A stretch of 64,000 bases of DNA from Agelas oroides (lineage: Eukaryota; Porifera; Demospongiae; Agelasida; Agelasidae): the NCBI GenBank assembly GCA_949130485.1, contig OX422192.1:496001-560000 (forward strand), given 5' to 3'. The first letter of the stretch is position 1. Every line of letters begins with the position of its first letter. A program made the position numbers and the translations under genes. Under the pieces are notes generated by a model. It did no database searches. It was not told the origin of the DNA and worked only from the letters and a program-made list of their open reading frames with translations. Positions 3,075-45,043 of this stretch are shown piece after piece.

Positions 3075-5190
3075 TTAAGTGCACTCTCCATCATTGTTCT
3101 GTTGCCCATCTCCACCACCAGTGGTGGCAGTGGGAGGCTGGGGGCCTGGAGCTATCTGGAGATCAGTGGGTAGACTATATGCTGGGTTCTCCAACACTAC
3201 CACCCCATCACCACCAGTGGCTGCAGTGGGAGACTGGGGTCCTATACCATACACTGGGTTTCTTTCCATGGGGATATCATCTGAAGCCGGTGCTCCTGTT
3301 AAAAGATTTTATACTTCATATTTGCAACCATGGATTACAAAACTGGCCTTTGTGAGTATACATGATTCTCAAACTCATCCTACCTCCTTCATGATCTGTG
3401 ATCTCAACATCTTCGTACTCTGGGTCAGCCTCACTGGCAGGTAAGGTCATGGTGAGCTCTGTGTAGTCAACAATCAGCTGCAAAAACCTGTCCAGAATGG
3501 AAGCAAGCTCACTGAATGTGGGCCTCTGTGCTGGATCTGCTCGCCAGCACCTCCGCATGATTGAGTACCTGTATGTGTATAGAAGATATGGATAACCACT
3601 TCACAGTATATAGCTACCCTGAGTCTAGGATGGACTTACACTTCTGCACTGCAAGCAGCATTTGGTGGTTTCTCAAGCCTCTGTCCACCTTCCAACATCT
3701 TCAGAAGTGACATGGGGTCTACTGCAGGGTACGGAATCTTGCCAGCCATGAATACCTCCCAACATGTCACACCAAAAGCCCACTGTGAGAGTGAAGAAAG
3801 ACTATGTGTTAACTGATCTGCAGGGTAGGGTAGTTATAGTAACCTACCACATCACTTTTCTCTGAGAACACTCCATCCTGGAAACTCTCTGGTGGTATCC
3901 ACTTGTAGGGCAGGCGGACATTGTCACTGCCATCCTTGCTCAGCCTGAAGTATCCCCTGGTATACACATCCTCTGCCAGTCCAAAGTCAGACACCTTGAC
4001 ATTACCACTGACGTCCAGCCTGCAAGAAGAGCATGAAAGAGAGAAAGGTAACTATGATATGGTTAGTTTTCTTGAGCTAGGGTGAACTTGGTGAACACCT
4101 TACATGCAATTTCTTGCGGCTAGGTCACGATGCACAAATTTCTGCTGTGCAAGATATTCCATTCCCAGGGCTATCTGGTGGCACATCCGAAGCAGCAGCC
4201 TTCTCACTGAAAAAATCTGAAAGCAATATGGAACTTAAACCATGACATTAACATAGACGCCTTGATTGCACTCATTTACACTTAACTGTATCTTAAACAA
4301 TCACATCAATATAACTGCCTTCATTCATACTTAACTGCGTCTAGCTCAGCGTCATCTGAGAGGTCTAGGTTGGGTCTCTCTTTCTTGAGGTAGGCTAGAA
4401 GACTCCCATTAGCCATATAAGGCATCACAAGGGCCAGCCCGGGGCCAGCGTCCAGACATACTCCAATCAGGGTCATCACATGAGGGTGGTCGAAGGACTG
4501 CATCTTAAGCACTTCATCCATCATGCTCTTGACATCATTTGGGGTGAAGAGGCCTGCATTGCAAGTGAGTGGAGAAAACATTTCCAACTGTAGAACACAA
4601 TGTAAGAAAATGTTGAAATTATGGTACAGTAACTTGTTGACCTTCTGATTAGCATAATTATGCCATATTGCTGCCTGCACAACACCGTTTATAATATTGT
4701 CTTGGAGAAATTTACATTCGAAGAGGAAACAAGGCTTGCTATAATACACCTCACTGTCAGGGCACATGCACTTGTTGTCTCTAGCTCAAACATACCTCTC
4801 ATTGTCTTCACTGCGACAAGTTCTTGTTTGTTTCTTCCTTGTTTCCTCAACAGCTTTGCTCTGTAGACAACTCCAAACTCTCCTGTACAAAGTAGACAGT
4901 GCAAGACAGTGCAAGACCATCATGCACTATAGCCTCATTTTCTGGACTCTGACCAGCTTTTCATTATATTCCATACTGCAAGCAATGAAAAGCCAGGAGC
5001 CAGGGAATGTGGATACATGTGGTATATGTAGCTTGTATAAATATGACTAACTCAGCACAAACTCTATGTGATGTCTGTAACTTACCTTCTCCAATGCTTT
5101 CAAAGAGTTGGAGGTGGCTACTGGGAACAATCAACTGCTGAGGAAGCTGTGCAACAAATTCATCTGTCACTTGAAATCCTGTGGTCTTTC
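3075..5190 (-). other. RTK1 tyrosine kinase domain and C-tail exons
   Basis: All catalytic motifs are present. The glycine loop is split between exons 5190-5086 and 4882-4796 (GEGEFGVV). The ATP lysine is in VAVKTM and the alpha-C glutamate probably lies in MMDEVLKM (4553-4336). The catalytic loop HRDLAARN is in 4216-4104, and DFGLAEDV with an activation loop ending YKWIPPES is in 4019-3848. The C-lobe motif [11 protein letters not shown] is in 3782-3640 and [14 protein letters not shown] in 3568-3384. HRDLAARN marks a tyrosine kinase. The tail has NPVYG and NPAYS, both NPxY motifs of the kind bound by PTB domains when phosphorylated, instead of the Met-type YVHV/YVNV docking site. I infer an active kinase. 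Confidence 0.9.
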
Positions 5191-8100: not shown

Positions 8101-11100
8101 TAGGTCTACTGAGCTGTGCACAGAACAATAAATGCTTAACAGCCATACAAGAACACACTGGTATGACATTATATTACTAACCTGAAACCAGTTTGTTTCG
8201 TTAGTGCAGGGAGCTGGAGTACCACTGCACACTTTGTTGTAGATACACCACCCACAAGCATTGTCTGTCTGGAGACACTGACTGCAACTGTGGGAAAAGT
8301 ATGTTACTTATTTACATGAGCATGCAGTATTAGAGCTGCCCTACATACCATGTTGCTGATTCACAACTGGTCACAGTCAAGGCACCCTCATTAGTAGCAA
8401 AGGGAATACCAACATCCGAGCTCAGAAAGCTGAAGTTTGTCACTGCAAGGAACATTGAACATGATGTATTGACATTCTTAGTGGAAGTGGCCCATTAGAC
8501 ACTACATGTGTAAATATTTTGTTTAGAGGATTCTCTAAACAGTCCACATGGTGAAGTAAACATATACCGTAGTGTCCCGCTAATACGCCCCCTTCGAAAA
8601 TACGCCCCCCCCCTCTTTTCCGCCAAAGTTCCTGCACAGGGTAGTTTGACTCGTTATAACGCCCCCCGGTGAGCGTCTTCTGGAACATCAAAACTACACG
8701 TGCTTACTACACGTTGCAAGTGCGTTCAGTAAGACTATAGTAGTCGGTGAATCTTTTGTAACTTTTGTGGCTTTTAGAAAAGCCGGTTAGATGTCCAAGT
8801 TTTAAGCTGCTAGTTTAGCAAACAGGTTTATCAGTCTGTCAAGGTGTTTTTGTTTCCCTCTGAAGATGTACACGCACGGAACCACGAGTCCTTTCCCATC
8901 AACTTCAGAACGTCTTCTGTCACCAATGACGATGCAAGTCATCTCGCTGCCACTCTTGTGCAAGAAATACCAGCAGACTCTGGAAATTTCCCGTGGTACA
9001 TGACCGACAGTGTTGCCGTTCTTGAGGACAGCTACAGCGAAGTCGTCGTGAATGTTATTGACCTCGCGTTGAACTGGCAGCTCTTCTCCGATGTAGGGAG
9101 ACCACGCCGCTTTGTAAACGTGATGTCCGCGAACAGTACTCTCGATCCTGAAAGTCGTCGCCATAGTTAGTTGGAAGTGTCCTAATTGCGTACATAGCAC
9201 TTGCGTAAAGTCTTTTGGGGGGGGGGCTTATAGTCGAGACTAATTGCATCCTCGAATATAAGCCCCCCCCCCACTTTAGGCGGGATGTAGTGTACAAAAT
9301 GGGGGGGCGTATTAACGGGACACTACGGTACATAACTGTATCATAGCATCATGCATAGTTGACAGGTAATGCAAATGTGCATGCCTGATTTGGCCAAAAC
9401 ATGGACATTGGGTAACTATACTCTGTGGGAATGTGGTTTACTGATTGTTCATGTACAGAGTTCATAAACCATCAACAGTGCAATGATATTCATGGAAATT
9501 TTAGTGATCCGATGGATTACAGTGGTATGTTAGCAATCTGATATGTTGCAGCAATTCAAAAGCACAGCTGCATGTCTAGTTCATCTTACCTAGCTGCACA
9601 TCAGTGAAGGTAGGGATCCTCCCAGTGATGTTGCACTGGTATGCCGTGTTGGGAGTTACCTCCTCAGCATCAACTGTGATCACCCTCACTCTTCCTCTGT
9701 CTGCAAGCTGGCACTGGTAACTCTCATTTGTCAGCAGTGGGGGTAATCCTGGGGTGACTGTCACACTCAACTGTGTATAGGATAGTACATTAGATTGAGG
9801 ACACACAAACTCATGAGAGAAACACTCACAATCTCAGGGTTATCCAGGACAAATTGGTTGGGGGTGATTGTGGTTGAGATGCACTGGCTGGAGTTCTGCA
9901 CCCATCTCACTGGCTCCACTGCATTCTGGCACTGGGACCTCCGAGAACACTTGTCCTCCACGGTACACCAGCCACACAGCGGGTTATTGTAACTGATGCA
10001 GCTCTCACAATCAGTGAAGGTAGCGCACTCCTCCAGACGGATTTGGAGAACCTATATAATTATGTACATATGTTGTAGTGTGAACAGTGATATAAAATTT
10101 CCAGTCCCATATGCATGTGTGTATGCACTTGCAACTTCTGTCATCCACCTTGCATTCAAAATCATCCCTAAGTTTTACTAGGCCTCCCCTTAAAATACAT
10201 ACTATAAATTAACAACTGGAAGCAAGATTGATTTTTGAATGAGGCTGCATTTGCTACATGGTATTTAAACCTGTATATATAACTGTATATATGTTTGCAT
10301 GCTGAACTGTCAATACTGTCTCAAAATACACACATTCCTATATACAGTGGCCTTCATCCAGACTCCCTCCTCCCTTGATGCATGTACCATGTACAGTACC
10401 GTAATCTCCCGAAAATATGCCCATTGGCTCCTCAAAGATGGGGGTGGGCGTATTTCAAGAGTTATGAGATTTCTCTCAAAAATATGCCCACCTCACAATA
10501 GATGTAAGGTGATTCTGCAATGCCTTTTTTGTCATGCGCTTGCTTATGCAATAGCAGCAAATAGTGCCTGCCTTCATTTGTTAGTCCTATCTCTTCACAG
10601 TATTGCTTCTTCAGTGCATATAACCGCAGTACTACAGCATTGGTAGGTGCGTGGACGTACTTACAAGAAGAAAGCAACCTTTGCAATAACTTCAAAAAAG
10701 GAAGGTAGGCTTATTTTCAAAGGTGGGCCTATTTTCGGGAGATTACAGTATAAGACAATCTTCCAGGTTCTCTTCCCACCTCCACCTGTATTTCTTGGCT
10801 TGTTCACCTCGTGACACATGAGGGGGAGGAACCTGAGTTTATGGTGCAACTAAAAGTTTATGTATATCCATACTCACTGATGTGTCTGTAGCCACATATA
10901 CATACTCCAGTTCACTCTCCCACTGCAGCTGTCTCACAGGAGATGACATACGACTGGTATAGAATGCTCTTTCTGGGCCGAGTGAATTTGAGGTGGAAGT
11001 GATATGAAACTGCAAGTTGAAGAGAAGAGATAAAATGAATCATACATAATCTCCAACATCTCTAGGTTAATTCTTACTGCTCCCACAAAGCTTCCACTGG

Positions 11101-12364
11101 TGTTAGTGTACCCAACGTAGATAATGCTGGTGGAGTCAACAATAACAGCTGTTGATGCTGTTATCTCTGTGTTTCCAAAATTCAGTCGTAGTGATCCACT
11201 AACAGGATACCCAGGGGCAGGATCAACAGCCTCCACATCACCAATAGCTAGTGGTTGTGTGAACTGACACATGTCCTGAAACTAAGAAGAATAACAACTG
11301 CATGTTTTAATTTATAGTGGGCTATACTACTGTTTATGGCATATCCAGCCAGGACAACTTTTACTCCCTGCTGGGCTCATGCTGTCCTGTCTGGTACATG
11401 AACTACTGTTACATGCACTCATGCATGTATACATATTGCCTACCTGAAATGTATCGCACTGAATTTCCCGATCCCATGCCACCTCAATCTCTACACTGTT
11501 TCTTGTTCCCGGGTCTGTACACTGAGTGTAGAATGTGTCCATACGATTATTAATGTCTGTTAAAGGAAAGGAGCAGATTCGATTGCGACCACCACTGTCT
11601 GAATTACACCTTGCCACCACAACAGTTGTACTAGGGGAACCAGCAAATGTGTCCAGCAAAGAAAGGCCACAGATCTCCGTGGTGGTTGGAAAGCCACCTC
11701 CACCACAATCAACTCTCACTTCATACAGTGCATCAAAGTTGCATTGAGTTGAACCTGAACAACTTGAAACATGACAGGCTCGCAACACTCTCAATCCCTC
11801 TACATCGTCAGGAGCACCATCAGCCATGAAGTAGTAAGCATTTGTACCATTCACAAAGCCACCAAAAAATGTTCTCATGAAACTAGTTCGTGTAATGCTG
11901 TAGTCTCTTGATCGTATAAAATATCTATCACCAAATCCATACTGTCTGAGGTTCATAGAAGTTGGTGCTCCACCGACAAAGCTTCCAACGTAGAAGCTGT
12001 TCTCCTCTGCAGTGAACAATGCTACCAAATCTGAAGAGGCAGAGGCTCTTGTCCTTCTCAGCTGCTCACCAGCATCAAAGTCACTGGCGTTGTACACAGC
12101 ACAGGACAGATCACTCAGACACACCACCACTCTCCTCTCATCAGAGCTCAGTGCCACCCTCAGTACACTGCTGCCCAGGGTCATGTTCTCCTGAAGACCT
12201 AGGGTGCTGTCCAGCCTGAGCAGGTGATTGCCGGCGGCTAGGAAGACCCGCCCGCCACCGTCCACCTTCATGTCAGAAGGACGTACGGAGAGAGAGAACT
12301 CTCGCTGCTGTGCTACAACTAAAAGTGGCAAAACACTGCAAAGGATAAGATGCATTTCCATCAT
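3075..12364 (-). CDS. RTK1: receptor tyrosine kinase with a complete plexin-type ectodomain
   Basis: A 26-exon model (minus): 12364-11444, 11275-11078, 11009-10878, 10051-9830, 9770-9590, 8442-8349, 8287-8182, 8113-7976, 7888-7787, 7673-7565, 7496-6881, 6788-6603, 6426-6336, 6274-6041, 5960-5868, 5806-5750, 5691-5522, 5314-5271, 5190-5086, 4882-4796, 4553-4336, 4216-4104, 4019-3848, 3782-3640, 3568-3384, 3295-3075. The lengths sum to 4938 nt (1645 residues), in frame throughout. Order: signal peptide ([17 protein letters not shown]), Sema (exons 1-3), PSI 1 (NPLCGWC), IPT-like, PSI 2 (NACGWC), IPT-like, PSI 3 (FECGWC) with IPT folds, one membrane helix, basic RHRKKQKK stop-transfer, tyrosine kinase, short tail. 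Probable role: a cell-surface receptor that binds through Sema and signals by tyrosine phosphorylation. The three PSI domains resemble plexins rather than Met, which has one. The ligand is unknown. Divergently arranged with PLX1. Confidence 0.88.
6499..6597. mobile_element. TAGCCT/GTTCCCAG MITE in RTK1 intron
   Basis: Ends CTAGCCTAGTTCCCAGG and its near-complement (GGGAACAAGGCTGG), with a further internal inverted pair (CCAGCTTTCCATCA / TGATGGAAAGCTGG) that folds almost the whole unit into a hairpin. Relatives occur throughout the window. Confidence 0.7.
8567..9328. mobile_element. 762-bp TIR element carrying a HIRAN reading frame
   Basis: Terminal inverted repeats of about 27 bp beginning CCGTAGTGTCCCG, one mismatch between the ends, flanked by a TA duplication (8565-8566 and 9329-9330). 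An inner G-tract hairpin lies near the right end. It sits in the RTK1 intron between exons 9770-9590 and 8442-8349. The RTK3 intron at the same place lacks it, which proves insertion. It carries no recognisable transposase and is probably non-autonomous. A 2-bp TA target fits Tc1/mariner-like and some other superfamilies. Confidence 0.85.
8802..9164 (-). CDS. HIRAN-domain-like protein inside a TIR element
   Basis: An intact 120-residue frame starting MATTFRIES, which I prefer to an upstream Met 12 residues earlier because the second copy of this domain also begins just before the matching FEAESCVRG segment. The HIRAN pattern is clear: VRGHHVY, then [20 protein letters not shown] and [14 protein letters not shown] domains bind DNA 3' ends in HLTF/Rad5-type helicases and occur alone in some bacterial and transposon-linked proteins. 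Here it stands alone with no helicase motifs. It may be a captured host exon or an element-encoded accessory DNA-binding protein. It lies antisense to nothing and in the same sense as RTK1, within an intron. Confidence 0.7.
   Translation of the reverse strand: MATTFRIESTVRGHHVYKAAWSPYIGEELPVQREVNNIHDDFAVAVLKNGNTVGHVPREISRVCWYFLHKSGSEMTCIVIGDRRRSEVDGKGLVVPCVYIFRGKQKHLDRLINLFAKLAA
10399..10748. mobile_element. 350-bp TIR element (CYGTAATCTCCCG ends) in RTK1 intron 3
   Basis: Ends CCGTAATCTCCCGAAAATA and the complement of CTGTAATCTCCCGAAAATA, flanked by TA (10397-10398, 10749-10750). The same insertion occupies the equivalent introns of RTK2 (31460-32341) and RTK3 (42687-43436) but not those of PLX1 or PLX2, so it is a marker of kinase-gene ancestry for this intron. 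Confidence 0.8.
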
Positions 12365-12381
12365 GCAATCATAGATAATAG

Positions 12382-12430
12382 ATAGTCTCGGAACCAGACC
12401 CTCAATTTTTCGAGAGTCTGGTTCCGAGAC
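12382..12430. mobile_element. 49-bp hairpin MITE
   Basis: Arms AGTCTCGGAACCAGAC and GTCTGGTTCCGAGACT around a short loop, flanked by TAGATAATAG on both sides (12372-12381, 12431-12440). The paralogous site near 45727 has a single TAGATAATAG and no hairpin, so this is a recent insertion with an 8- to 10-bp target duplication. Confidence 0.8.
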
Positions 12431-13229
12431 TAGATAATAGAGCATAGTAGGGATTGGAAACGCGTATATTGCGTGACGTCACTTACAATCCGAGTTGCGC
12501 CCGTTGCGCTTCATTGCTCGGTGGAAGGTGCTCTTGATAGCAGTACAGTTTCGATATAATACATCGCATATGGATTTCATTGCATTAATAATAAGTAAAA
12601 CACTCCGACGCATGAAGCGAAGTCCTTCACAAGTTCAAGGATCACTTTGCTTCTTGATAGGGCTGATGGAAGTATGTAATTTTCTAGCGGACTGTAGAGT
12701 TAGTATTGACATAATGTGAACAACAGATAATTGGCTGGGTAATAAAGAATTGTTTGGCTTGCATAGGTGAACACCAAAACAAATCGTAGTTCTTTGGCAC
12801 GTGAAATTATGCGTAAAAGTAGGTATGTTTTGTGTAATTTTAGTAGGAAAATAATGCAACTTGAAACTTTTTGCCTGACATAGACTTGTTACGATGTCCA
12901 TGAGTTGTTGTTTAAGGGAAAAGATGAAGGCCTACCGCAGATGGACTGCGGAGTGAACTCCACCGGGATGTACCGTGCAAGTCCCATTGGGGGTGTGGTT
13001 TTCGATCGAATGCCGACTGCTAGCAAACTGAGGCTAAACATATAAACTGACAAGATGCGCCGCAGTAGAAAGTAGGAGATTTCCAACAAGCTCATTGCTA
13101 TACTGGTGTGCTCATGAACTAAGACTTGTTCGCTCGGACTACCCACGCTAAATTACACGGAAGTAAGCTTATACGGACTTACAGCAACGCGGATGAAACC
13201 CGTAAAACGTTACGTTTCCAATCCCTACT

Positions 13230-13311
13230 TAGTCTATCAAGCTAGACCCTCTCTCACCTTTCTGGTCTCTCACTTTTCTGGAGGTGAGAGATGGTCTAGC
13301 TTGATAGACTA
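13230..13311. mobile_element. 82-bp hairpin MITE
   Basis: Perfect or near-perfect arms starting TAGTCTATCAAGCTAGACC, flanked by ATCCCTACT (13221-13229 and 13312-13320). Also present in the RTK3/PLX2 spacer (about 46553-46636), so it predates the block duplication. Length and 9-bp duplication resemble hAT-type MITEs. Confidence 0.8.
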
Positions 13312-13550
13312 ATCCCTACTATGCTTCTATTATCTATTATCTATGATGCAATGCAGTCGCGCGAGCAGTACCACGCCCCCGGTCATTACTTCCGGTTTTG
13401 AGGTCATCTCGCACCTACCATAGATAATATACCCTTCCGGTGCAACACGGGCTAGACGTGTGAGTATGTGATAATTGGCACTGTTTCCAATCCCGGGTAG
13501 GGTATATTATCTATGCTGTGACCGAGCCGGTTTTTGCCAACCGTAGAAAG

Positions 13551-16500
13551 ATGGCCTGGAACAGATGGAGAACTTGTAGCGCTTTGATTTTGTTGCTATT
13601 GATTGCAGGGGGAAGGACTCAGCAGCGAGAGTTCTCTCTCTCCGTACGTCCTTCTGACATGAAGGTGGACGGTGGCGGGCGGGTCTTCCTAGCCGCCGGC
13701 AATCACCTGCTCAGGCTGGACAGCACCCTCGGTCTTCAGGAGAACATGACCCTGGGCAGCAGTGTGCTGAGGGTGGCGCTGAGCGCTGATGAGATGAGAG
13801 TGGTGGTGTGTCTGAGTGACATGTCCTGTGCTGTGTACAACGCGAGTGACTTTGTTGCTGGTGAGCAGTTGAAAAGGACAAGAGCCTCTGCCTCTTCAGA
13901 GGTGGTAGCATTGTTCACTGCAGAGGAGAACAGCTTCTACGTTGGAAGCTTTGTCGGTGGAGCATCAACTTCTATGAACCTCAGACAGTATGGATTTGGT
14001 GATAGAGATTTTATACGATCAAGAGACTACAGCATTACACGAACTAGTTTCATGAGAACATTTTTTGGTGGCTTTGTGAATGGTACAAATGCTTACTACT
14101 TCATGGCTGATGGTGCTCCTGACGATGTAGAGGGATTGAGAGTGTTGCGAGCCTGTCATGTTTCAAGTTGTTCAGGTTCAACTCAATGCAACTTTGATGC
14201 ACTGTATGAAGTGAGAGTTGATTGTGGTGGAGGTGGCTTTCCAACCACCACAGAGATCTGTGGCCTTTCTTTGCTGGACACATTTGCTGGTTCCCCTAGT
14301 ACAACTGTTGTGGTGGCAAGGTGTAATTCAGACAATGGTGGTCGCAATCGAATCTGCTCCTTTCCTTTAACAGACATTAATAATCGTATGGACACATACT
14401 ACACTCAGTGTACAGACCCGGGAACAAGAAACAGTGTAGAGATTGAGGTGGCATGGGATCGGGAAATTCAGTGCAATACATTTCAGGTAGGCAATATGTA
14501 TACATGCATGAGTGCATGTAACAGTAGTTCATGTACCAGACAGGACAGCATGAGCCCAGCAGGGAGTAAAAGTTGTCCTGGCTGGATATGCCATAAACAG
14601 TAGTATAGCCCACTATAAATTAAAATATGCAGTTGTTATTCTTCTTAGTTTCAGGACATGTGTCAGTTCACACAACCACTAGCTATTGGTGATGTGGAGG
14701 CTGTTGATCCTGCCCCTGGGTATCCTGTTAGTGGATCACTACGACTGAATTTTGGAAACACAGAGATAACAGCATCAACAGCTGTTATTGTTGACTCCAC
14801 CAGCATTATCTACGTTGGGTACACTAACACCAGTGGAAGCTTTGTGGGAGCGGTAAGAATTAACCTAGAGATGTTGGAGATTATGTATGATTCATTTTAT
14901 CTCTTCTCTTCAACTTGCAGTTTCATATCACTTCCACCTCAAATTCACTCGGCCCAGAAAGAGCATTCTATACCAGTCGTATGTCATCTCCTGTGAGACA
15001 GCTGCAGTGGGAGAGTGAACTGGAGTATGTATATGTGGCTACAGACACATCTGTGAGTGTTAGATACATTTCAGTTTATGTGCAGTGAACAATTCTGATC
15101 TGGCTAGATCAAACAGATAGAATTGGGTGGAGCCTAAACGCTGTGCAGCATCCTGAGATCTTAGAATTATGTGTACCATTATATATAGAGCATTGTTTTT
15201 TGAAATTTTTGACAGTATCGCTATCAGCATATAAATATAAAGATGGCCCAGCCGGCAAAATTATAGCCTCAATTCCAGACCAACATGTCGTTCATTCCCT
15301 TGTGTGATGCCGGCCCGAAATACTATACATCTCTCATGTTTGTCAGAAGTAAACCCTACATTTATACCATATTTGCATGTGACTAAGTGTACCTAGCCTT
15401 AGCCTTGTTCTCAGGCACTAAAAAATTTTGGGGAACGCACGCGTGAAGTTTCCTTGGTAATCTGCATGCTACTCTGTTACAGTAAATATCAGCTTATTTC
15501 ACTTAACCTGCTGAAAGGCACCCTGTGAGACACATTTGGAAGGTTTTAAAGTCAGAACTGCTATTGCTTTGACAGCAATGGCTTGCATCATCTTGTTCAA
15601 GGTGATCAGTGAGCTTCAAAGGGAGAGACTGCATCATTCATGTACCGCAGTGTTTTTCAGCATTGAATGACAGACCGTGGTTAGTGTAGCGGAGTAGATT
15701 TTACCAACTCCTCCAGGAAATCGTAGAGAGCCGCACATGCACAAACAGTGCATACCAGGCACTCCCTCCGATTTTTTGAGTGCCTGGGAACGAGGCTAGT
15801 ACTAGCCTCTATTTCCCTAGCTAGAGTGAAGTGTAATAATTGAAAACTTTGTATAAAGGTTCTCCAACTCCCTCTGGAGGAGTGTGCAAACTTCACTGAT
15901 TGTGAGAGCTGCATCAGTTACAATAACCCACTGTGTGGCTGGTGTACTGTGGAGAACAAGTGTTCTCGGAGGTCCCAGTGCCAGAATGCAATGGAGCCGG
16001 TCAGATGGGTACAAAACTCTGACCAGTGCATCTCAAACACAATCACCCCCAACCAGTTCATCCTGGATGACCCAGAGATTGTGAGTGTTTCTTTATAATT
16101 GTATTGCATATTATTTGCATCACCAATGTGACATACTATCCTATAGCTGACTGTGACAGTCACTCCAGGATTGCCCCCACTGCTGACTAATGAGAGTTAC
16201 CAGTGCCGATTTACAGGCAAGGAAGGACTGAGGGTGATTGCAGATGCTGAGGAGGTAATTCAAAACACAACATACCAGTGCAACATCACTGGGAGGATCC
16301 CTACCTTCACTGGGGTGCAGCTAGGTAAGATGTACTAAAAGTATTCCAACAGGAACTCACGAGCCACTGAGTATACTATAGGTGCACAATTGTATAAGTA
16401 ACAGCATGGTTTCGAGTGCAATTTGAGATTAATAGCACGAGTGAATGGCTGTTAATTGCAGGAAGCAAAGCGGATTGCAATTATGCCAAATCCCAAATTG

Positions 16501-21850: not shown

Positions 21851-21912
21851 TAGCCTCGTACCCAGGGTCTTTCTTGTGTGTGAAGAGGGAATGAACCTGG
21901 GTATGAGGCTAG
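21851..21912. mobile_element. TAGCCT hairpin MITE
   Basis: TAGCCTCGTACCCAGG at the left and CCTGGGTATGAGGCTA at the right, about 62 bp. The copy in PLX2 intron 17 (54711 onward) has lost its right end. Confidence 0.7.
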
Positions 21913-22137
21913 AGTAAGAGCGTGTAACTCCAATAGAAGCCCATAGTCCGGTCAAAATTATTGAACCGTACTAAAAATAGAACACCCGGTCACGTGCTTA
22001 GCAACAATGGCTTATGTCCATGTGCAGCTGTGCATACATGTTACTGTTTTTAGTACTCGCGGTAAAGTCCGACCGGTTCCAAATTTTACATAGTTACACG
22101 CTCTTACTCTAGCCGCCCGTTCTTATGCACTCTTGAA
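21913..22137. mobile_element. AGTAAGAGCGTGTAACTC TIR element, left end eroded
   Basis: Inverted ends GAGTAAGAGCGTGTAACT / AGTTACACGCTCTTACTC, followed by the outer right-end sequence (AGCCGCCCGTTCTTATGCAC). A complete relative is at 60046-60297 and a fragment at about 24089-24137. Absent from the equivalent place in PLX2 intron 17. Confidence 0.65.
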
Positions 22138-22569
22138 GCACTATGTAGAGATTATATCTACCCCTAGTAACGCTAGCTAGCCTGTCCTTGTACCAATATA
22201 CTCGAGGGTTTGTACCCAGGCTCTTTCTATTGCTGGGCAACTAGGGATTAGCCAAATGACAAAGCTTTAAGTTTTCATTGTGGGCTTGAGTCAGTACCTC
22301 TGTTCCTCTCTGGAGGTTTTTGGTGGGGTTCCCCCAAGAAGATTAGGTTAATGGCAGACCAACCAGGCTAGAGAGAGTCTGCATGCCTTGCAGATAGAAG
22401 CTCATATGTAGAAGTTTTATATCGGGCTAGTATATCTAGGACTTTGGAGTGTAGGGAGGAATGATAGATTGTGTGAGGTCAGAGGTCGCAAATACCAAAG
22501 ATTAAACATATATATACATGTAGTGAAAGGACGTATAACACAAATGCAAATATCAAAGATCAAACTCAC

Positions 22570-22954
22570 AGGAGCTGGAAGGTTTCTGGTCTGTAGTTCA
22601 ATGTCTCTAGCAACGTTCACTGGTTGTACATAGTCTCCAGTGGGTGTGAAGGGTGAGGGCTCCAAGAGAGGACATACATCCAGGTAGGTGGTGTTAGGTC
22701 TACTGAGCTGTGTACAGAACAAATATGACATTATGGCCATACAACAAAACATGCATACACACAACACCATGTGTGACTAACTTGAAACCAGTTTGTTTCG
22801 TTAGCAGGCATGTATAGCTACACAAGCCGCTAACTATGTGGCACTGACCTGAAACCAGTTTGTTTCACTGGTGCAGGGAGCTGGAGTACCACTGCACACT
22901 TTGTTGTAGATACACCACCCACAAGCATTGTCTGTCTGGAGACACTGACTGCAG
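22570..22954 (-). pseudogene. Two orphan receptor exons (PSI 2 and following IPT exon)
   Basis: Two intact exons with their splice sites: 22954-22849 (106 nt, PSI 2 with NACGWC and six-cysteine spacing) and 22707-22570 (138 nt, [14 protein letters not shown]). Lengths match exons 7 and 8 of every receptor here. The flanking intron sequence (22487-22569) matches the RTK2 intron at 29139-29220, so they are a copied piece of RTK2 or a close relative. The intron between them contains a partial tandem copy of the first exon's 3' end (22781-22803). No further exons follow on either side. They lie downstream of RTK2 on the same strand. Confidence 0.75.
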
Positions 22955-24471: not shown

Positions 24472-27400
24472 TCAATTAAGTGGTTCATACTCTCCATCAT
24501 TGTTCTGTTGTCCATCTCCACCAACAGTTGTGGCAGTTGGAAGCTGAGTGCCTGGAGCTATCTGGAGATCAGTGGGTAGACTATATGCTGGGTTCTCCAA
24601 CACAACCACCTCATCTCCTCCAGTGGCTGCAGTGGGAGGCTGGGTGCCTGCACCGTACACTGGGTTTCTTTCCATGGGGATATCATCATCAGGAGGTGCT
24701 CCTGTTAAAAGGATTTCTATAAGTTCATATTTGCAACCATGGATTACAAAACTGGCCTTTGTGAGTATGCATGATTCTTAAACTCATCTTACCTCCTTCA
24801 TGATCTGTGATCTCAACATCTTCGTACTCTGGGTCAGCCTCACTGGCAGGCAAGGTCATGGTGAGCTCTGTGTAGTCAGCAACTAGCTGCAGAAACCTGT
24901 CCAGAATGGAAGCAAGCTCACTGAATGTGGGCCTCTGTACTGGATCTGCTCGCCAACACCTCCGCATGATTGAGTACCTGTATGTGTATATATAGGTAGA
25001 AGTTAACAGGATCACCACTTCATAGTATATTGCCACCCTGAGTCTATACTAGACTTACACTTCTGTACTGCAAGCAGTGTTTGGTGGTTTCTCAAGCCTC
25101 TGTCCACCTTGCAACATCTTCAGAAGTGACATGGGGTCTACTGCAGGGTACGGAATCTTGCCAGCCATGAATACCTCCCAACACGTCACACCAAAAGCCC
25201 ACTGTGAGAGTGAAGAAAGACATCTACATATCACTGTTAACTGATCTGCAGGGTAGGGTAGTTATAGTAACCTACCACATCACTTTTCTCTGAGAACACT
25301 CCATCCTGGAAGCTTTCTGGTGGTATCCACTTGTAGGGCAGGCGGACATTGTCACTGCCATCTTTGCTCAGCCTGAAGTATCCCCTGGTGTACACATCCT
25401 CTGCCAGTCCAAAGTCAGACACCTTGACATTACCACTGATGTCCAGCCTGCATGAAGAGCATGAAAGAGAGAAATCTAGCCAGTTTCTTTACTGCTATTA
25501 TAAGCTCTATATAGCCCCAAAAACAAACCCTTACATGCAGTTTCTTGCAGCTAGGTCACGGTGCACAAACTTCTGCTGTGCAAGATATTCCATTCCCAGG
25601 GCTATCTGGTGGCACATCCGAAGCAATAGCCTTCGCACCGAAAATATCTGAAAGCAAATCAGTGCATGTGGGACTTAAACAATCACATAAAATTGCACTC
25701 ATTCGTACTTAACTGCATCTAGCTCAGCGTCATCTGAGAGGTCTAGGTTGGGCCTCTCTTTCTTGAGGTAGGCCAGAAGACTTCCATTGGCCATATAAGG
25801 CATCACAAGGGCCAGCCCGGGGCCAGCGTCCAGACATACTCCAATCAGGGTCATCACATGAGGGTGGTTGAAGGACTGCATCTTGAGCACTTCATCCATC
25901 ATGCTCTTGACATCATTTGGAGTGAAGAGGCCTGCAGTGCAAGTGAACAACTTATTTTCTAAACTGTAGAGCACATAAGGATAAATTTTCAGCTGACAGT
26001 AATGAAGGGTACAATAATAATAATAATATGCCTTACAAACTTTGCAAGAAAGCCATGATCTTATAACGCAGTAAGTTGTTGACATTTTACATCAGTAAAA
26101 TGTTAATAATGCTCATTAACAAGGCTATTTCTAGCCAATAAAGTTGATTCTGTTTTTACTATACTCTCACGGAAGTGGAAACAAGACTAGCTATAATACA
26201 CCATTGGTTGTTGCCTAACTCAAACATACCTCGCATTGTTTTCACTGCGACAAATCCTGGATCACTTTTTCCTTGTTTTCTCAACAGCTTTGCTCTGTAG
26301 ACAACTCCAAACTCTCCTGTACAAAGTAGACAGTGCAAAACCACCATGTGCACATTGTCTGGCCCAGCCCAGCTTTTCATACTTTTCCATACTCAGCAAG
26401 TGAAGAGACAGAAAGCTGGGTGAGGGCCTGGGAATGAGGTTACATGGCTTGTATAAAAATGACTGACACCAACTAACAATACAGCACAAACTTTGTTAGT
26501 TTGTAGATTACCTTGTCCAATGCTTTTAGAGATTTGGAGGTGGCTACTGGGAATAATCAACTGCTTTGGAAGTTGTGCAATAAACTCATCTGTGACTTGA
26601 AATCCTGCTGTCTTTCCTATAGGACACAAAATGAATTCTCAGCTATGCCACAACATACAAAGCAACAGGACAATATACTCAACTGCTGGCATATACCTGG
26701 CATACTGTTGTTACCTTCGGTCACTGTAGGAGTTCCTAAAGTTTCCATTTGTGAGAGAAGAGTAGTCAAACGCTTGTCCTTCGCCTGTGCTGATGATCTG
26801 GTCACACATATGATGATGCAGATCACCAGCATACTCAACAGCAGTACAAGCGCGACTGGGCCTACAATAACCGGTATTATGAGTTGTAAGTTTAAGCCGC
26901 CGGTTGATGTATACGTCAGTGTCCCAGCAGTGAAATTGGAGTTTATCCCAATCATCACCTAGAGAAGAAAGAAGCCATTCAGTGGCAGTACACACAGCCT
27001 GTGAAAGCACTACATGTACTCACCCTCACAGTTGCTGCAGTCACGCCCCCTGGTGCTTGTGAAGGAGGGGTACAGACAATCTACAAGGAACAAGTACTTG
27101 ACTGTCACATTCAGTATGGTTTCACTAACATACATGTGTACATCAACCTACCGTGGTCTCACCGACGCTGATGATATCACAAGGTTCTCCACCAACCAGT
27201 ACTCGTATCTCACTCTCATCAACTGAGTTCAGGTTCAAACCCTAAACATCACACAGAACACAACAACAACAACGACTATAAATCACTGTTCACTAATCAA
27301 ACTTAAGGTACTTGTAGTCCATACATCAATGGTGATTGCAGTTCCTGCACCAGGTGTGTAGTCAGTAGTATCAAGGCCATCAGTAGCAATACTAGGGTTA

Positions 27401-36130: not shown

Positions 36131-39100
36131 TCAATTAAGTGGTTCATACTCATATTCATTGTTCTGTTGCCCATCTCCACCAACAGTGGTGGCAGTGGGA
36201 GACTGGGGGCCTGAAGCTGGCTGGAGATCTCTGGGCAGACTATATGCTGGGTTCTCCAACACAACCACCCCATCACCACCAGTGGCAGCAGTGGGAGACT
36301 GGGGGCCTGCACCATACACTGGGTTTCTTTCCATGGGGATGTCATCATCAGGAGGTGCTCCTGTTAAAAAGATTTCTATAAGTCCATATTTGCAACCATG
36401 GATTACAAAACTGGCCTTTGTGAGTGTGCATGGTTCTCAAACTCATCTTACCTCCTTCATGATCTGTGATCTCAACAGCTTCATACTCTGGGTCAGCCTC
36501 ACTGGCAGGTAAGGTCATGGTGAGCTCTGTGTAGTCAGCAACCAGCTGCAGAAACCTGTCCAGGATCGAAGCAAGCTCACTGAATGTAGGCCTCTGTGCT
36601 GGATCTGCCCGCCAGCACCTCCGCATGATTGAGTACCTGTATATATAGAAGTTGGTAACTGGATCATTACTTCATAGTAGGTAGAAGCTGTATCATCACT
36701 TCATAGTATACTGCCACCCTGAGTCTATACTAGACCTAGACTTACACTTCTGTACTGCAAGCAGTGTTTGGTGGTTTCTCAAGCCTCTGTCCACCTTGCA
36801 ACATCTTCAGAAGTGACATGGGGTCTACTGCAGGGTACGGTATCATGCCAGCCATGAATACCTCCCAACACGTCACACCAAAAGCCCACTGTGAGAGTGA
36901 AGAAAGACATATCACTATTAACTGATCTGCAGGGTAGGGTAGTTATAGTAACCTACCACATCACTTTTCTCTGAGAACACTCCATCCTGGAAGCTTTCTG
37001 GTGGTATCCACTTGTAGGGCAGGCGGACATTGTCACTGCCATCTTTGCTCAGCCTGAAGTATCCCCTGGTATACACATCCTCTGCCAGTCCAAAGTCAGA
37101 CACCTTGACATTACCACTGATGTCCAGCCTGCATGAAGAGCATGAAAGAGAGAAATCTAGCCAGTTTCTTTACTGCTATTATAAGCTCTATATAGCCCCA
37201 AAAACAAACCCTTACATGCAGTTTCTTGCAGCTAGGTCACGGTGCACAAACTTCTGCTGTGCAAGATATTCCATTCCCAGGGCTATCTGGTGGCACATCC
37301 GAAGCAACAGCCTTCGCACCGAAAATATCTGAAAGCAAATCAGTGCATATGGGACTTAAACAATCACATAAAATTGCACTCATTCATACTTAACTGCATC
37401 TAGCTCAGCGTCATCTGAGAGGTCTAGGTTGGACCTCTCTTTCTTGAGGTAGGCCAGAAGACTTCCATTGGCCATATAAGGCATCACAAGGGCCAGCCCG
37501 GGGCCAGCGTCCAGACATACTCCAATCAGAGTCATCACATGGGGGTGGTCGAAGGACTGCATCTTAAGCACTTCATCCATCATGCTCTTGACATCATTTG
37601 GGGTGAAGAGACCTGCATTGCAAGTGAACAACTCATTTTCTAAACTGTAGAGCACATAAGGATAAATTTTCAGCTGACAGTAATGAAGGGTACAATAATA
37701 ATAATATGCCTTGCAAACTTTGCAAGAAAGCCATGATCTTATAACGCAGTAAGTTGTTGACATTTTACATCAGTAAATGTTAATATTGCTCATTAACAAG
37801 GCTATTTCTAGCCAATAAAGTTGATTCTGTTTTTACTATACTCTCACGGAAGTGGAAACAAGACTAGCTATAATACACCATTGATTGTTGCCAAGCTGTA
37901 ACATACCTCGCATTGTCTTCACTGCAACAAATCCTGGATCACTTTTTCCTTGTTTTCTCAACAGCTTTGCTCTGTAGACAACTCCAAACTCTCCTGTACA
38001 AAGTAGGCAGTGCTGTAGCCTCATTGTCTGGCACCACCCAGCTTTCCATTACATTTCCATACTCAGCAGAAGAGACAGAAAGGTGGGTGGGGCCTGGGAA
38101 TGGGACTATATGGTTTGTATAAAATGACTGACACCAACTAACAATACAGCACAAACTTTGTTAGTTTGTAACTTACCTTGTCCAATGCTTTTAGAGATTT
38201 GGAGGTGGCTATTGGGAATAATCAACTGCTGAGGAAGCTGTGCAATAAACTCATCTGTGACTTGAAACCCTGCAGCCCTTCCTATAGGACACAAAATGAA
38301 TTCTCAGCTATGCCACAACATACAAAGCAACAGGACAATATACCCAACTGCTTGCATATACCTGGCATACTGTTGTTAGCTTCGGTCACTGTAGGAGTTC
38401 CTAAAGTTTCCATTTGTGAGAGAAGAGTAGTCAAATGCTTGTCCTTTGCCCGTGCTGATGATCTGGTCACACATATGATGATGCAGATCACCAGTATACT
38501 CAACAGCAGTACAAGCACGACTGGGCCTACAATAACCGGTATTATGAGTTGTAAGTTTAAGCCAGTAGATGTGTATGTCAGTGTCCCAACAGTGAAATTG
38601 GAGTTTCTCCCAATCATCACCTAGAGGAGAAAGAAGCCATTCAATGGTAGTACACACAACCAGTGAAAGCACCACTTGTACTCACCATCACAGTTGCTGC
38701 AGTCACGCCCCCTGGTGCTTGTGAAGGAGGGGTACAGACAATCTACAAGGAACAAGCACTTGACTGTCACCTTCAGTATAGTCTCACTGACATACATGTG
38801 TATAATAACCTACCGTGGTCTCACCGACGCTGATGATATCACAAGGTTCTCCACCAACCCACACTCGTATCTCACTCTCATCAACTGAGTTCAGGTTCAA
38901 ACCCTAAACATCACACAGAACACAACAACATCATCATATAAATCACTGTTCACTAATCAAACTTGTAGTCCTTACATTAATGGTGATTGCAGTTCCTGCA
39001 CCGGGTGTGTAGTCAGTAGTATCAAGGCCATCAGTAGCAATACTAGGGTTAGGAGCCAAGCTCAGTCTCAGGTCACCACTGTTACTTGGACCAGGAGCAT

Positions 39101-42100
39101 TGTCCATTATGATTGTGTAGTTGATGCTGTTGTCCAATGGATCACCACCACTGAGTGCTGGAGCAGTACACACCAGCAAAGTGTCACTCTCAGGACGACA
39201 CACTGTTCTCTGGGGGAGATGGAAATACCACCATAATGTCATGCACAAGAGTCCACAGCTGCATAACTGTGTGTACCGGTGGTGTTGCCATATGGTTGTT
39301 GACAACAAGAGTTGGACGCTGTACAGAGTCCAGGTCTGTCCCAGTGAAGTTCAAGGAAATACCCCCACTGGAGGTATGAGATGCAGACATTGCATTACAT
39401 GGTGAGTTAGCAGAGTGCAGTTTGCACCACATAACTTACGCTGGAATGGTCATTGTTGGAGTGACCGAGGAGAAAGTGGGGTCTCTTCTGAAAGTGAACT
39501 CAACTCCATCTTCAGTGACATTTGCATTGCCAATGTGTACAACAACACAGCCAGTTGAAGGAAGGAGTGAACTGTTGTAAGGGTAGGCTGTGGAGTCACA
39601 CCTGATCTCTGTCCCTGAAATACCCCTGGAATATCAGATACAATAAAGTTGCTGTTCATGAGCTCGGTCACTATGTACATGCTGAGCTACATACAGTATT
39701 CATAAAACTTACAGCATCTGAATTGTGCATTCCGGTCCATCCTCTCCATCCAGAGTCACTCGTGTGTCTTCCACATTGCTGATGTTGAGACCAGTGCCTC
39801 GTATGGTAATGGACGTTCCCCCAGACATTGGACCAAATGATGGTTCCACTCCTGTCACAGTCGGTGCCACAACAGTAAACAGTGATGGTCCTACAACATC
39901 AACCAAGGTAGCTCCACGCTGCAGGGTAATTGTTACATCTTGGGAACCTTGAGCACTGGTAAATGTGGTCTCACAAACAATCAGTGTTCCTGGGATATAA
40001 GAATTTTCTTGTGTGATGCATGCACTTGAGCCTATTGTGACCCTGTTAATATCAGCATATGTCACTCCTAAATCTGTGCCAGTAATGTTAACAGTTGTCC
40101 CTCCCTCAGGTGGTCCTGAAGCTGGAAAGACACTGGTGATAGTTGCAGCAGGACATTGATTTGGAGAGGTGGCAAACTGTGCAGGACTGCGGCAATCCTC
40201 TGAAACACGACACATGTCATCTGAGCTCCCACTACACCAGCCACACTCAAAGCCAGTCCCCAGGTTAGCTCCCAGACATGAGGAGCAACCATCTGCTAGC
40301 AAGGGACAGTTGTACAGAACCACTGCAGGGAACAAAAACATGCATCCATAACACTGACAATATCATTAACAAGGATGCACTTACTGCTGACTGGAGTGCG
40401 AAGATCAATTGGATGTCGACGTCCTGAGGATACAATTTCCCACACAATACTGATGGTAATGTTCTCTCTGCCAGTGGAGCTACTGGATAAAATCATCTGT
40501 GGAAGTTTGCAGAGGACATCAGTACATACATGTATGTTTATTTACTATAAGGTAAAAAAAAATCTTTCCTAATTATGGGTATTATAATGTCATACCTAGA
40601 GTACATTACCTGATTTTGGTCCACCACACAAGTAAGTGAGCTCTCATTGTTGTAGACAGTTGGAAGATTAACAGTTCCTCTCAAAGTACAGATATACCTG
40701 AATCCACTGATCTGGAAGAAGGTAAAACAATTGCTGACATAGACAACAAGGGTTAAGAGTGAATGGTTAAACTCACAGGAGCTGGAAGGTTGCTGGTCTG
40801 TAGTTCAATGTCTCTAGCAACACCCACTGGTTGCACATAGTCTCCAGTGGGTGTGGAGGGTGAGGGCTCCAAGAGAGGACACACATCCAGGTAAGTGGTG
40901 TTAGTCCCATTCAACTGTGTGTGTGGAACACAGCGCTACCAGTACTATGACAGCTAGGCATGTACACAGATGCATACACATGATGACACAATATCATGCC
41001 ACTAATGTTATGCCACAGACTAACCCGAAACCAATTAGTTTCATCAGTGCAGGGAGCTGGAGTACCACTGCACACTTTGTTGTAGATACACCACCCACAA
41101 GCATTGTCTGTCTGGAGACACTGACTGCAGCTGTGGGAAAAGTATTTTACTTATTTACATGAGCATGCAGCATTAGAACTGCCCTACATACCTTGCTGCT
41201 GATGCACATCTGGTCACAGTCAAGGCACCCTCATTAGTAGCAAAGGGAATACCAGTCTCTGAGCTCACAAAGCTGAAGTCCGTCACTGCAAAGAACATTG
41301 AACATGATGTATTGACATTCTTAGTGGAAGTGGCCCATTAGACACTACATGTGTAAATATTTTGTTTAGAGGATTCTCTAAACAGTCCACATGGTGAAGT
41401 AAACATATACATTTTTTTTTTCTTTTTTTTTTCTTTAATGATTTATGCAATGTATGCAAAGGGCAGAGCAGTTAGCAACCTAATGCTATCGGAAGAGCTA
41501 GCCCAAGAATACAAAACAAGACAAGTAGGGACTAGACAGGACAAAACAAATAATTACAGACCAAGTGACCAGCAACAAGGGAGAATTTAAAAAGAAAGTG
41601 GGGCTAATTTAAGCTTGCGCTTAAATGAGGAGGTTGTGAGAGCACAGACAATACATAACTGTATCATAGCACCACAGTTGACAGGTAATGCAAATGTGCA
41701 TGCCTGATTTGGCCAAAACATGGACATTGGGTAACTACACTCTGTGGGAGTATGGTACAGAGATTGTTCATGTACAGAGTTCATAAACCATCAACAGTGC
41801 AATGATATTCATGGAAAGTTTAGTGATCTGATGGTATGTTAGCAATCTGATATGTTGCAGCAATTCAGCTGCATCTCTAGTACATCTTACCTAGCTGTAC
41901 ACCAGTGAAAGTAGGGGTCCTCCCAGTGATGTTGCACTGGTATGCCGTGTTGGGAGTTACCTCCTCAGCATCAACTGTGATCACCCTCACTCTTCCTCTG
42001 TCTGCAAGCTGGCACTGGTAACTCTCATTTGTCAGCAGTGGGGGTAATCCTGGGGTGACTGTCACACTCAACTGTGTATAGGATAGTACATTAGATTGAG

Positions 42101-45043
42101 GACACACAAACTCATGAGAGAAACACTCACAATCTCAGGGTTATCCAGGACAAATTGGTTGGGGGTGATTGTGGTTGAGATGCGCTGGCTGGAGTTCTGC
42201 ACCCATCTCACTGGCTCCACTGCATTCTGGCACTGGGACCTCCGAGAACACTTGTCCTCCACGGTACACCAGCCACACAGCGGGTTATTGTAACTGATGC
42301 AGCTCTCACAATCAGTGAAGGTAGCGCACTCCTCCAGAGGGATTCGGTGAACCTATATAATTATGTACATATGTTGTAGTGTGAACAGTGATATAAAATT
42401 TCCAGTCCCATATGCATGTGTGTATGCCACTTGCAACTTCTGTCATCCACCTTGCACTCAAAACCATCCCTAAGTTTTACCAGGCCTCCCCTTAAAATAC
42501 ATACTATAAATTAACAACTGGAAGCAAGATTGATTTTTGAATGAGGCTGCATTTGCTACATGGTATTTAAACCTGTATATATAACTGTATATATGTTTGC
42601 ATGCTGAACTGTCAATACTGTCTCAAAATACACACATTCCTATATACAGTGGCCTTCATCCCTTGATGCATGTACCATGTACAGTACCGTAATCTCCCGA
42701 AAATATGCCCATTGGCTCCTCAAAGATGGGGGTGGGCGTATTTCGAGAGTTATGAGATTTCTCTCAAAAATATGCTCACCTCACAATAGATTCTGCGATG
42801 CCTTTTTGTCATGTGCTTGCTTATGCAATAGCAGCAAATAGTGCCTGCCTTCATTTGTTAGTCCTACCTCTTCACAGTACTGCTTCTTCAGTGCATATAA
42901 CCGCAGTACTACAGCATTGGTAGGTGCATGGACGTACTTACAAGGCTAAGGCTAGGTACACTTAGTCACATGCAATTATGGTATAAATGTAGGGTGTACT
43001 TCTGACAAAGATGAGAGATGTATAGTATTTTGGGCCGGCATCACACAAGGGAATGAATGACATGTTGGTCTGGAATTGAGGCTATAATTTTGCTGGCTGG
43101 GCCATCTTTATATTTATATGCTGATAGTGATACTGTCAAAAATTTCAAAAAACAATGCTCTATATATAATGGTACACATAATTCTAAGATCTCAGGATGC
43201 TGCACAGCGTTTAGGTTCCACCCAATTCTATCTGTTTGATCTATCCAGATCAGAATTGTGCACTGCACATAAACTGAAATGTATCAAGATTAACACTCAC
43301 ATAGCCACACATACATATAACCGCAGTACTACAGGTGCGTGGACGTACTTACAAGAAGAAAGCAACCTTTGTAATAACTTCAAAAAAGGAAGGTAGGCTT
43401 ATTTTCAAAGGTGGGCCTATTTTCGGGAGATTACAGTATAAGACAATCTTCCAGGTTCTCTTCCCACCTCCACCTGTATTGCTTGGCTTGTTCACCTCGT
43501 GACACATGAGGGGAGGAACCTGAGTTTATGGTGCAACTAGATATATCCATACTCACTGATGTGTCTGTAGCCACATATACATACTCCAGTTCACTCCTCC
43601 ATTGCAGCTGTCTCACAGGAGATGACATACGATTCGTATAGAATGCTCTTTCTGGGCCGAGTGAATTTGAGGTGGAAGTGATATGAAACTGCAAGTTGAA
43701 GAGAAGAGATAAAATGAATCATACATAATCTCCAACATCTCTAGGTTAATTCTTACCACTCCCACAAAGCTTCCACTGCCGTTCGTGTACCCAACGTAGA
43801 TAATGCTGGTGGAGTCAACAGTAATAGCTGCTGATGCTGTTATCTCTGTGTTTCCAAAATTCAGTCGTAGTGATCCACTAACAGGATACCCAGGGGTAGG
43901 ATCAACAGCCTCCACATCACCAATAGCTAGTGGTTGTGTGAACTGACACATGTCCTGAAACTAAGAAGAATAACAACTGCATGTTTTAATTTATAGTGGG
44001 CTATACTACTGTTTATGGCATATCCAGCCAGGACAACTTTTGCTCCCTGCTGGGCTCATGCTGTCCTGTCTGGTACATGAACTACTGTTACATGCACTCA
44101 TGCATGCATACATATTGCCTACCTGAAATGTATTGCACTGAATTTCCCGATCCCATGCCACCTCAATCTCTACACTGTTTCTTGTTCCCGGGTCTGTACA
44201 CTGAGTGTAGTATGTGTCCATACGATTATTAATGTCTGTTAAAGGAAAGGAGCAGATTCGATTGCGACCACCATTGTCTGAATTACACCTTGCCACCACA
44301 ACAGTTGTACTAGGGGAACCAGCAAATGTGTCCAGCAAAGAAAGGCCACAGATCTCCGTGGTGGTTGGAAAGCCACCTCCACCACAATCAACTCTCAATT
44401 CATACAGTGCATCAAAGTTGCATTGAGTTGAATTTGAACAACTTGAAATGTGACAGGCTCGCAACACCCTCAACCCCTCTACATCATCAGGAGCACCATC
44501 AGCCATGAAGTAGTAAGCATTTGTACCATTCACAAAGCCACCAAAAAATGTTCTCATGAAACTAGTTCGTGTAATGCTGTAGTCTCTTGATCGTATAAAA
44601 TCTCTATCACCAAATCCATACTGTCTGAGGTTCATAGAAGTTGATGCTCCACCGACAAAGCTTCCAACGTAGAAGCTGTTCTCCTCTGCAGTGAACAATG
44701 CTACCAAATCTGAAGAGGCAGAGGGTCCCGTCCTTCTCAGCTGCTCACCAGCATCAAAGTCACTGGCGTTGTACACAGCACAGGACAGATCACTCAGACA
44801 CACCACCACTCTCATCTCATCGGAGCTCAGTGCCACCCTCAGTACACTGCTGCCCAGGGTCATGTTCTCCTGAAGACCGAGGGTGCTGTCCAGCCTGAGC
44901 AGCTGATTGCCGGCGGCTAGGAAGACCCGCCCGCCACCGTCCACCTTCATGTCAGAAGGACGTACGGAGAGAGAGAACTCTCGCTGCTGTGCTACAACTA
45001 AAAGTGGCAAAACACTGCAAAGGATAAGATGCATTTCCATCAT
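36131..45043 (-). CDS. RTK3: receptor tyrosine kinase, mosaic of RTK1-type and plexin-type ectodomain
   Basis: Exons include 45043-44123, 43954-43757, 43688-43557, 42352-42131, 42071-41891, 41285-41192, 41130-41025, 40914-40777, 40711-40610, 40496-40385, 40322-39713, then about 39625-39440, 39367-39277, 39209-38976, 38904-38815, 38743-38687 and the membrane exon from 38620. Kinase exons: about 38178-38280, 37909-38002, 37395-37614, 37218-37330 (HRDLAARN), 36957-37129 (DFGLAEDV), 36752-36889, 36453-36638, tail 36131-36363 with NPVYG, NPAYS and YEPLN. Signal peptide as in RTK1. From about 41.13 kb to 38.4 kb exon lengths (112 and 610 nt) and introns are those of the plexins, not RTK1 (109 and 616). 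The donor after the membrane exon is mutated (GT to CT at 38379-38378). Kinase motifs are otherwise intact. Confidence 0.8.
38362..38620 (-). other. RTK3 chimeric transmembrane exon with displaced donor
   Basis: Same plexin/kinase fusion exon as RTK2 ([13 protein letters not shown]), but the RTK2 donor AAG|GTAACA reads AAGCTAACA here. Two downstream GT sites, ACA|GTATGC (+9 nt) and CCAG|GTATAT (+18 nt, exon end 38362), keep the frame into the next kinase exon. The second has the better consensus and would add ANNSMP. If neither is used, the frame ends at 38282-38284 and the protein lacks a kinase. Confidence 0.65.
41413..41650 (-). mobile_element. 5'-truncated LINE-like tail in RTK3 intron 5
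   Basis: Read on the minus strand it is a 238-bp unique sequence ending ATTAAAGAAAAAAAAAA, flanked by ATACAT on both sides (41407-41412, 41651-41656). RTK1 and RTK2 lack it. The A-rich end plus short target duplication fits a truncated non-LTR retroposon. The family is not identifiable. Confidence 0.65.
42687..43436. mobile_element. CYGTAATCTCCCG TIR element in RTK3 intron 3 with foreign insert
   Basis: Same element as in RTK1 and RTK2, with TA flanks. It is split by about 390 bp (42943-43330) that come from a plexin exon 3/intron 3, and the host sequence CCGCAGTACTACAG...ACGTACTTACAAG is repeated on both sides of that insert. Confidence 0.75.

Follow-up and report, generated by a model that had tools for sequence, protein, structure and literature searches.

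In the demosponge Agelas oroides, a 64,000-nucleotide stretch of contig OX422192.1, here called the window (C10:496001-560000 within the 259 Mb assembly GCA_949130485.1), encodes three receptor tyrosine kinases (RTKs), R1, R2 and R3, that combine a full plexin ectodomain with an intracellular tyrosine kinase, along with two plexin genes, P1 and P2, that lie head to head with R1 and R3. These genes very likely belong to a sponge family of Met-LP-type kinases in which a plexin ectodomain was joined to a kinase, the product was duplicated and its copies exchanged sequence with plexins, a ligand common to both kinds of receptor being most likely. The gene structures, their domains, the mosaic identity between kinase and plexin genes and purifying selection on the kinase are established here. 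An earlier note on this DNA had already seen plexin-ectodomain tyrosine kinases in R1-R3, and the open spliced models, domain matches and alignments bear that observation out; its wider interpretation is supported for the plexin ectodomain but not for a new receptor class or for a kinase placed away from Met. The genes of the window are as follows.

12364-3075, minus strand: R1, plexin-ectodomain receptor tyrosine kinase, 26 exons, 1645 amino acids, membrane span of its own RTK type
33959-24472, minus strand: R2, plexin-ectodomain receptor tyrosine kinase, 25 exons, 1662 amino acids, plexin-type membrane span
24793-26616, minus strand: kinase cassette of R2, exons E16-E22, juxtamembrane part and kinase domain
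24472-24701, minus strand: last exon (E23) of R2, C-terminal tail with NPVY and NPAY, the same motifs being present in R1 and R3
45043-36131, minus strand: R3, plexin-ectodomain receptor tyrosine kinase, 25 exons, 1661 amino acids
13551-19834, plus strand: P1, plexin ectodomain and membrane span, truncated or decoy copy
46844 to past the window end (64000), plus strand: P2, true plexin, with ectodomain and membrane span at 46844-52687
58590, plus strand: first cytoplasmic match of P2, whose RBD and RasGAP exons continue past the window end to C10:567137 and slightly further
12365-13550: intergenic DNA between R1 and P1, head to head, 1186 bp from start codon to start codon
45044-46843: intergenic DNA between R3 and P2, head to head, 1800 bp from start codon to start codon

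In the exon-by-exon models of R1, R2 and R3 all internal splice sites are GT-AG and each gene gives one open frame, with a common layout of Sema region, three PSI domains, IPT domains, a single membrane span (identified by eye from the sequence) and an intact tyrosine kinase. Positions 3075 and 45043, between which the earlier note had placed the family, are indeed the stop of R1 and the start of R3. Its claim that the exon lengths are those of P2 is nearly correct, as the ectodomain exons equal those of P2 in 10 of 16 cases for R2 and 13 of 16 for R3, the remainder differing by multiples of three. Absent or out-of-frame PSI2 and PSI3 exons in the kinases were ruled out, these exons being in frame in all three models.

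The ectodomain is of the plexin type. Pfam finds in R2 the tyrosine kinase (272 bits), four TIG domains, two PSI domains and the plexin-type TIG_2; the domain set of R3 is the same, and R1 agrees except for having one PSI. The cysteine motif C..C..CGWC of the PSI domain occurs three times in each of R1, R2 and R3, so that the PSI count is made up of those passed by Pfam (two in R2 and R3, one in R1) and others recognised by this motif and by alignment to plexin-A4, with which all three PSI domains of R2 align in one unbroken match. The ectodomain scores 241-251 bits against plexin-A1, plexin-A2 and plexin-A4 versus 83 against MET, and the stalk 248 bits against plexin-A4 versus 84 against MET; the plexin-A4 match (E 3e-73) excludes chance. 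The Pfam Sema model PF01403 gave no match to R1, R2 or R3 at E 0.01, and the Sema region was recognised by alignment to the Sema-PSI chains of plexin-B1 (query residues 143-451, 73 bits) and plexin-A2. MET and RON resemble these receptors in their Sema region, IPT domains and a kinase of the same broad clade, but they have one PSI and a shortened stalk whereas R1-R3 have three PSI domains and the full plexin layout. The earlier description of plexin outside and kinase inside is correct. The likeness to plexins covers the ectodomain, the exon layout and, for R2 and R3, the membrane-span exon. Plexins continue into an RBD and a RasGAP part, in place of which R1-R3 have the tyrosine kinase; no RBD or RasGAP match was found by Pfam in any of the three.

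These ectodomains go with the plexins beside them, to which some are near-identical in places, in agreement with the expected grouping with local plexins. In two tracts the likeness extends through the introns.

38396-41137, minus strand: R3 tract that starts in E7 and takes in most of E15, 98.2% identical to P2 at 49924-52661 across 2745 aligned columns, introns included
10872-12310, minus strand: R1 tract, 98.5% identical to P1 at 13620-15058 over 1439 columns, Sema exons E1-E3 minus the leader, introns included

Identity between R3 and P2 is 84.8% at the DNA level around E4-E5 and 97.8-100% in exons E8-E14, and that between R1 and P1 is 83-87% beyond E1-E3. Synonymous divergence (dS) follows the same pattern, R3 and P2 differing by 0.27 in E4-E5, 0.02 in E8-E12a and 0.01 in E12b-E14, with a dS of 0.02 between R3 and R1 in E4-E5. 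In each of five scans, none of 10000 permutations clustered the informative sites as strongly. The simplest reading of this patchy identity is that gene conversion or unequal exchange has taken place between kinase and plexin genes. Over the whole ectodomain, R3 and P2 differ at 56 of 1128 sites (95% shared). The plexin-like region E12b-E15, membrane span included, is present in R2; the membrane span is of another type in R1 and in R4, a copy on C1, matched in two broken copies, RE and RK, and of an intermediate type in a further copy, R5. The intergenic DNA between R1 and P1 is 92.1% identical to that between R3 and P2 over 1076 columns, and was duplicated along with the genes.

The family extends beyond the window to six genes, R0-R5, in each of which exons for a plexin ectodomain occur together with stop-free kinase exons E16-E22. 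Those outside the window, with the second true plexin and the broken copies, are given here.

C10:461.7-463.7 kb, upstream of the window: kinase exons of R0, with ectodomain pieces to about 475 kb
C1:5163.6-5173.5 kb: R4, 22 of 24 exon queries found, the Sema exon running off the fetched end
C10:3459.5-3468 kb: R5, 21 of 24 exon queries found, those for E1, E2 and E23 not
C10:427620-432227, minus strand: PA, true plexin
C10:554590-567137: Plexin_cytopl region of P2
C10:477829-494221 (L022-L024), upstream of the window: RE, an R0-type ectodomain without kinase-domain exons
C10:477829-494221 (L022-L024), the same region: RK, kinase exons in which there is a stop and a splice site has been lost

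The same pattern is seen in R0, with a different plexin. In the aligned DNA segments its ectodomain is 81-98% identical to that of PA, introns included; at the protein level, identity is 82-100% in 14 of 15 segments and 68% in the one with the membrane span. Over kinase exons E17-E22, R0 instead matches R2, at 91-97% DNA identity. Thus two different plexin ectodomains are found on kinases, each common to one of the two GAP plexins found (R3 with P2, R0 with PA). There are at least 11 matches to Plexin_cytopl (PF08337) in the genome, all in the P2 and PA gene regions. The cytoplasmic part of P2 holds Plexin_RBD and the RasGAP domain Plexin_cytopl, aligns to plexin-A1 with 419 bits and keeps the stretch LLLRRTESVAEKML, so P2 (PLX2 in the earlier note) was rightly called a true plexin. 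P1 as a complete plexin was ruled out, since no cytoplasmic exon was found for it and all of these PF08337 matches fall in P2 or PA; it may be a tail-less decoy or a dying copy. In the sponge Amphimedon, too, plexins with short tails are known (PMC6374515). Downstream of P1 the match to P2 stops around position 22486; next comes a fragment in inverted orientation that carries E8 and E7 (PSI2), at 22570-22953 on the minus strand. A tandem repeat array of about 1.2 kb (62080-63282), open in several frames, apparently lies within an intron of P2. Relatives of the PSI3-IPT exon were sought by pattern, with none confirmed among 33 matches in a collection of genome contigs or among 46 in a collection of viral contigs.

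The kinase motifs looked for, DFG among them, are intact in R1-R3, which agrees with the earlier description of an active-looking enzyme. The ratio of nonsynonymous to synonymous divergence (dN/dS) in the kinase is 0.08-0.30 in all 15 pairs among R0-R5, out to R5 at a dS of 0.55-0.67, and thus the kinase is under purifying selection. Its placement differs from what had been predicted, namely that the kinase would cluster elsewhere than Met. In a 32-row tree the seven plexin-kinase rows and another sponge kinase, L057, fall in a clade with MET, RON, AXL and TYRO3 (support 97/98), though a group of MET, RON and the plexin-kinases that leaves out L057 is rejected by the approximately unbiased (AU) test (p-AU 0.0018). 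A sister position to MET/RON has support of just 87/67, and a sister group with TAM fits (p-AU 0.79). Ten of 16 single-exon sponge kinase loci were extracted for this tree, L046 and L052 being left out; 12 of the 16 human sequences are unverified, and the EGFR row, from a chain with two kinase copies, has a long branch. Two of the four AU tests (B and D) turned up trees slightly better than the one from the unconstrained search, so the order in which MET, TAM and the sponge kinases branch is tentative. The genome has at least 148 matches to PF07714, and large arrays of single-exon kinase frames lie on C15, C8 and at C10:7.5 Mb.

The plexin-kinases very likely arose in the following way. A sponge RTK of the MET/RON/TAM group would have gained a plexin ectodomain near the membrane-span exon, the resulting gene would then have duplicated, and its copies would later have swapped ectodomain sequence with true plexins by gene conversion or recombination. 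Under this scenario, each of the two RasGAP plexins found would have come to have a kinase partner of closely similar ectodomain. The join looks sponge-made because a grouping with MET that omits the nearer sponge kinase is rejected, and the balance of the sequence evidence favours one more independent origin, from a MET/TAM-type kinase within sponges. Alternatively, animals may have inherited a MET-like kinase with a full plexin ectodomain, from which bilaterian Met later lost PSI2 and PSI3. The well-supported MET/RON/TAM clade, in which the sponge kinases are drawn beside MET/RON, speaks for such an ancestral gene, but the same AU rejection, the equal fit of the TAM grouping and the genomic surroundings of L057 make it unlikely. 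L057 is one of eight close copies in an array at C10:3.29-3.38 Mb, in which lies none of the 12 PSI matches of the genome, in an insensitive search that also missed PA and R0, including PSI1, and none of the 64 TIG matches, in a search that did detect PA and R0.

Clustered copies, repeated ectodomain exchange and broken members are also what might be seen at a locus for recognition of self or microbes that diversifies through exchange, rather than in a guidance system, and a study of the sponge Halichondria panicea reports a plexin-like receptor and a Sema gene as up-regulated after lipopolysaccharide (PMC8242945). Yet in all but one of 60 comparisons by block dN is lower than dS, and a recognition locus of this kind is improbable. 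For the PSI and IPT domains these block-scan values were used in place of dN/dS from an ungapped alignment, which breaks at indels in E10. The broken copies could likewise suggest that unequal exchange in an unstable cluster has left recent hybrids without function that are now decaying, RE having no kinase-domain exons, RK a stop and a lost splice site and P1 no cytoplasmic exons; with R1, R2 and R3 intact over 25-26 exons and their kinases constrained in every pair, this is very doubtful. Least credible is an assembly artefact, in which unpurged haplotypes or collapsed repeats produce the likeness: P1 and P2, and parts of R3 and P2, are 97-100% identical in DNA, but the copies are unlike one another in orientation, leader peptide, introns and cytoplasmic exons, identity comes in patches of exon scale, and R0 and PA have the same pattern at lower identity.

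Of 396 sites in the Sema region, 12 differ between R1 and P1 and 19 between R3 and P2, and this identity of 95-97% lends weight to the shared-ligand idea. The same Sema-type ligand would most likely cluster either a plexin or a kinase receptor, the output of the plexin being RasGAP activity and that of the kinase trans-phosphorylation, after which PTB (phosphotyrosine-binding) adaptors would dock at the NPVY and NPAY tyrosines of the tail. We infer the ligand, dimerisation, co-expression and downstream signalling from the sequences. More tentatively, sponges may have a system of paired receptors, with a kinase counterpart for each GAP plexin (R3 for P2, R0 for PA); exchange would then keep ligand recognition shared while the signalling tails stay different, and the balance may be tuned by the head-to-head arrangement of genes and by copies that lack a tail, like P1. 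The paired activating and inhibitory receptors of vertebrate immunity, KIR, SIRP and PILR, are similar in being clustered, with homogenised ectodomains and differing signalling tails. They are unrelated proteins, however, and the sponge pairs would set a GAP against a kinase output with putative sharing of a ligand.

Several observations weigh against a family joined within sponges, exchanging with plexins and sharing their ligand. Complete gene models cover R1-R3 only, and R0 is represented by separate pieces. The R2 ectodomain, at 87%, has no equally close plexin partner. By raw score the nearest single-domain PDB match of the kinase is FGFR3 (216 bits), followed by MER (206), RET (204) and RON (204), the top PDB row being an EGFR chain with two kinase copies whose score is the sum of two 156-bit matches; kinship with FGFR was nonetheless rejected, as a clade with FGFR3 has a p-AU of 0.0099. 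The L057 ectodomain is covered at the membrane-span end alone, and a diverged or lost plexin ectodomain is possible there. The one locus returned by the Sema search is a Sema-family gene with a PSI, at C14:1.98 Mb; this search is insensitive, having failed to pick up the Sema regions of R1, R2, R3, P1 and P2, and further semaphorin genes may exist.

The architecture was taken in the earlier note for a distinct receptor class, but it has been described as that of Met-LP RTKs: Junqueira Alves et al. (2019; PMC6374515) report such kinases with a complete plexin ectodomain from Lophotrochozoa and Echinodermata, not from sponges. The same source judges Met-LP polyphyletic, with a kinase acquired once for Met and twice for Met-LP, notes that a starfish plexin adjoins a Met-LP gene, leaves the Met-LP ligand open, and from Amphimedon, its one sponge, reports four semaphorins along with plexins, of which two are complete and four have a short intracellular part (PMC6374515). 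Met-LP receptors and the sponge genes are alike in having a complete plexin ectodomain, one membrane span and an intracellular tyrosine kinase, and in lying beside a plexin, as in starfish. They differ in that R0-R5 are in a sponge and the nearest kinase found for them is a sponge RTK, in a comparison made outside the Met-LP kinase sequences, and in that the sponge has two plexin ectodomains on one kinase cassette and near-identical kinase-plexin partners with exchange tracts. No sponge plexin-kinase was found among the open-access papers listed, subscription journals and preprints being outside this scope. As far as searched, the sponge family of six genes, its apparent separate origin, the kinase-plexin partner pairs and the patchy kinase-plexin identity, read as conversion or recombination, are new.

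The mitochondrial genome of the assembly, C141, is 22.4 kb long with 24 tRNAs by ARAGORN, including trnR(tct), a gene for ATP synthase subunit c (ATP-synt_C match) and TGA within cox1, and so carries the poriferan features of trnR(ucu), atp9, about 25 tRNAs and TGA as Trp. To our knowledge, a mitochondrial genome with atp9 and trnR(ucu) does not fit a bilaterian or most cnidarians. Two mitochondrial genomes from demosponges, 20.6 and 20.7 kb long, are given as having 14 protein genes and 25 tRNAs (PMC7799499, PMC7800652). In C141, cox1 is split at 14660-15890 (L032) by an insertion that has an open frame of about 397 codons and may be a self-splicing intron. Contig C107, which is 16.8 kb long and may stem from an associated microbe, has another COX1-like match at C107:16176-16808 (L030), in which there are no TGA codons.

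The A. oroides family extends the plexin-kinase design beyond Bilateria and suggests repeated fusion of a plexin ectodomain with a kinase. It also gives a view, at the level of DNA, of how the outside and inside of a receptor are swapped. Given the share of the ectodomain that R3 and P2 have in common, any ligand that binds one would be expected to bind the other as well, and with such near-identical partners the question raised in 2019 of whether plexin-ectodomain kinases still bind semaphorins is now directly testable.

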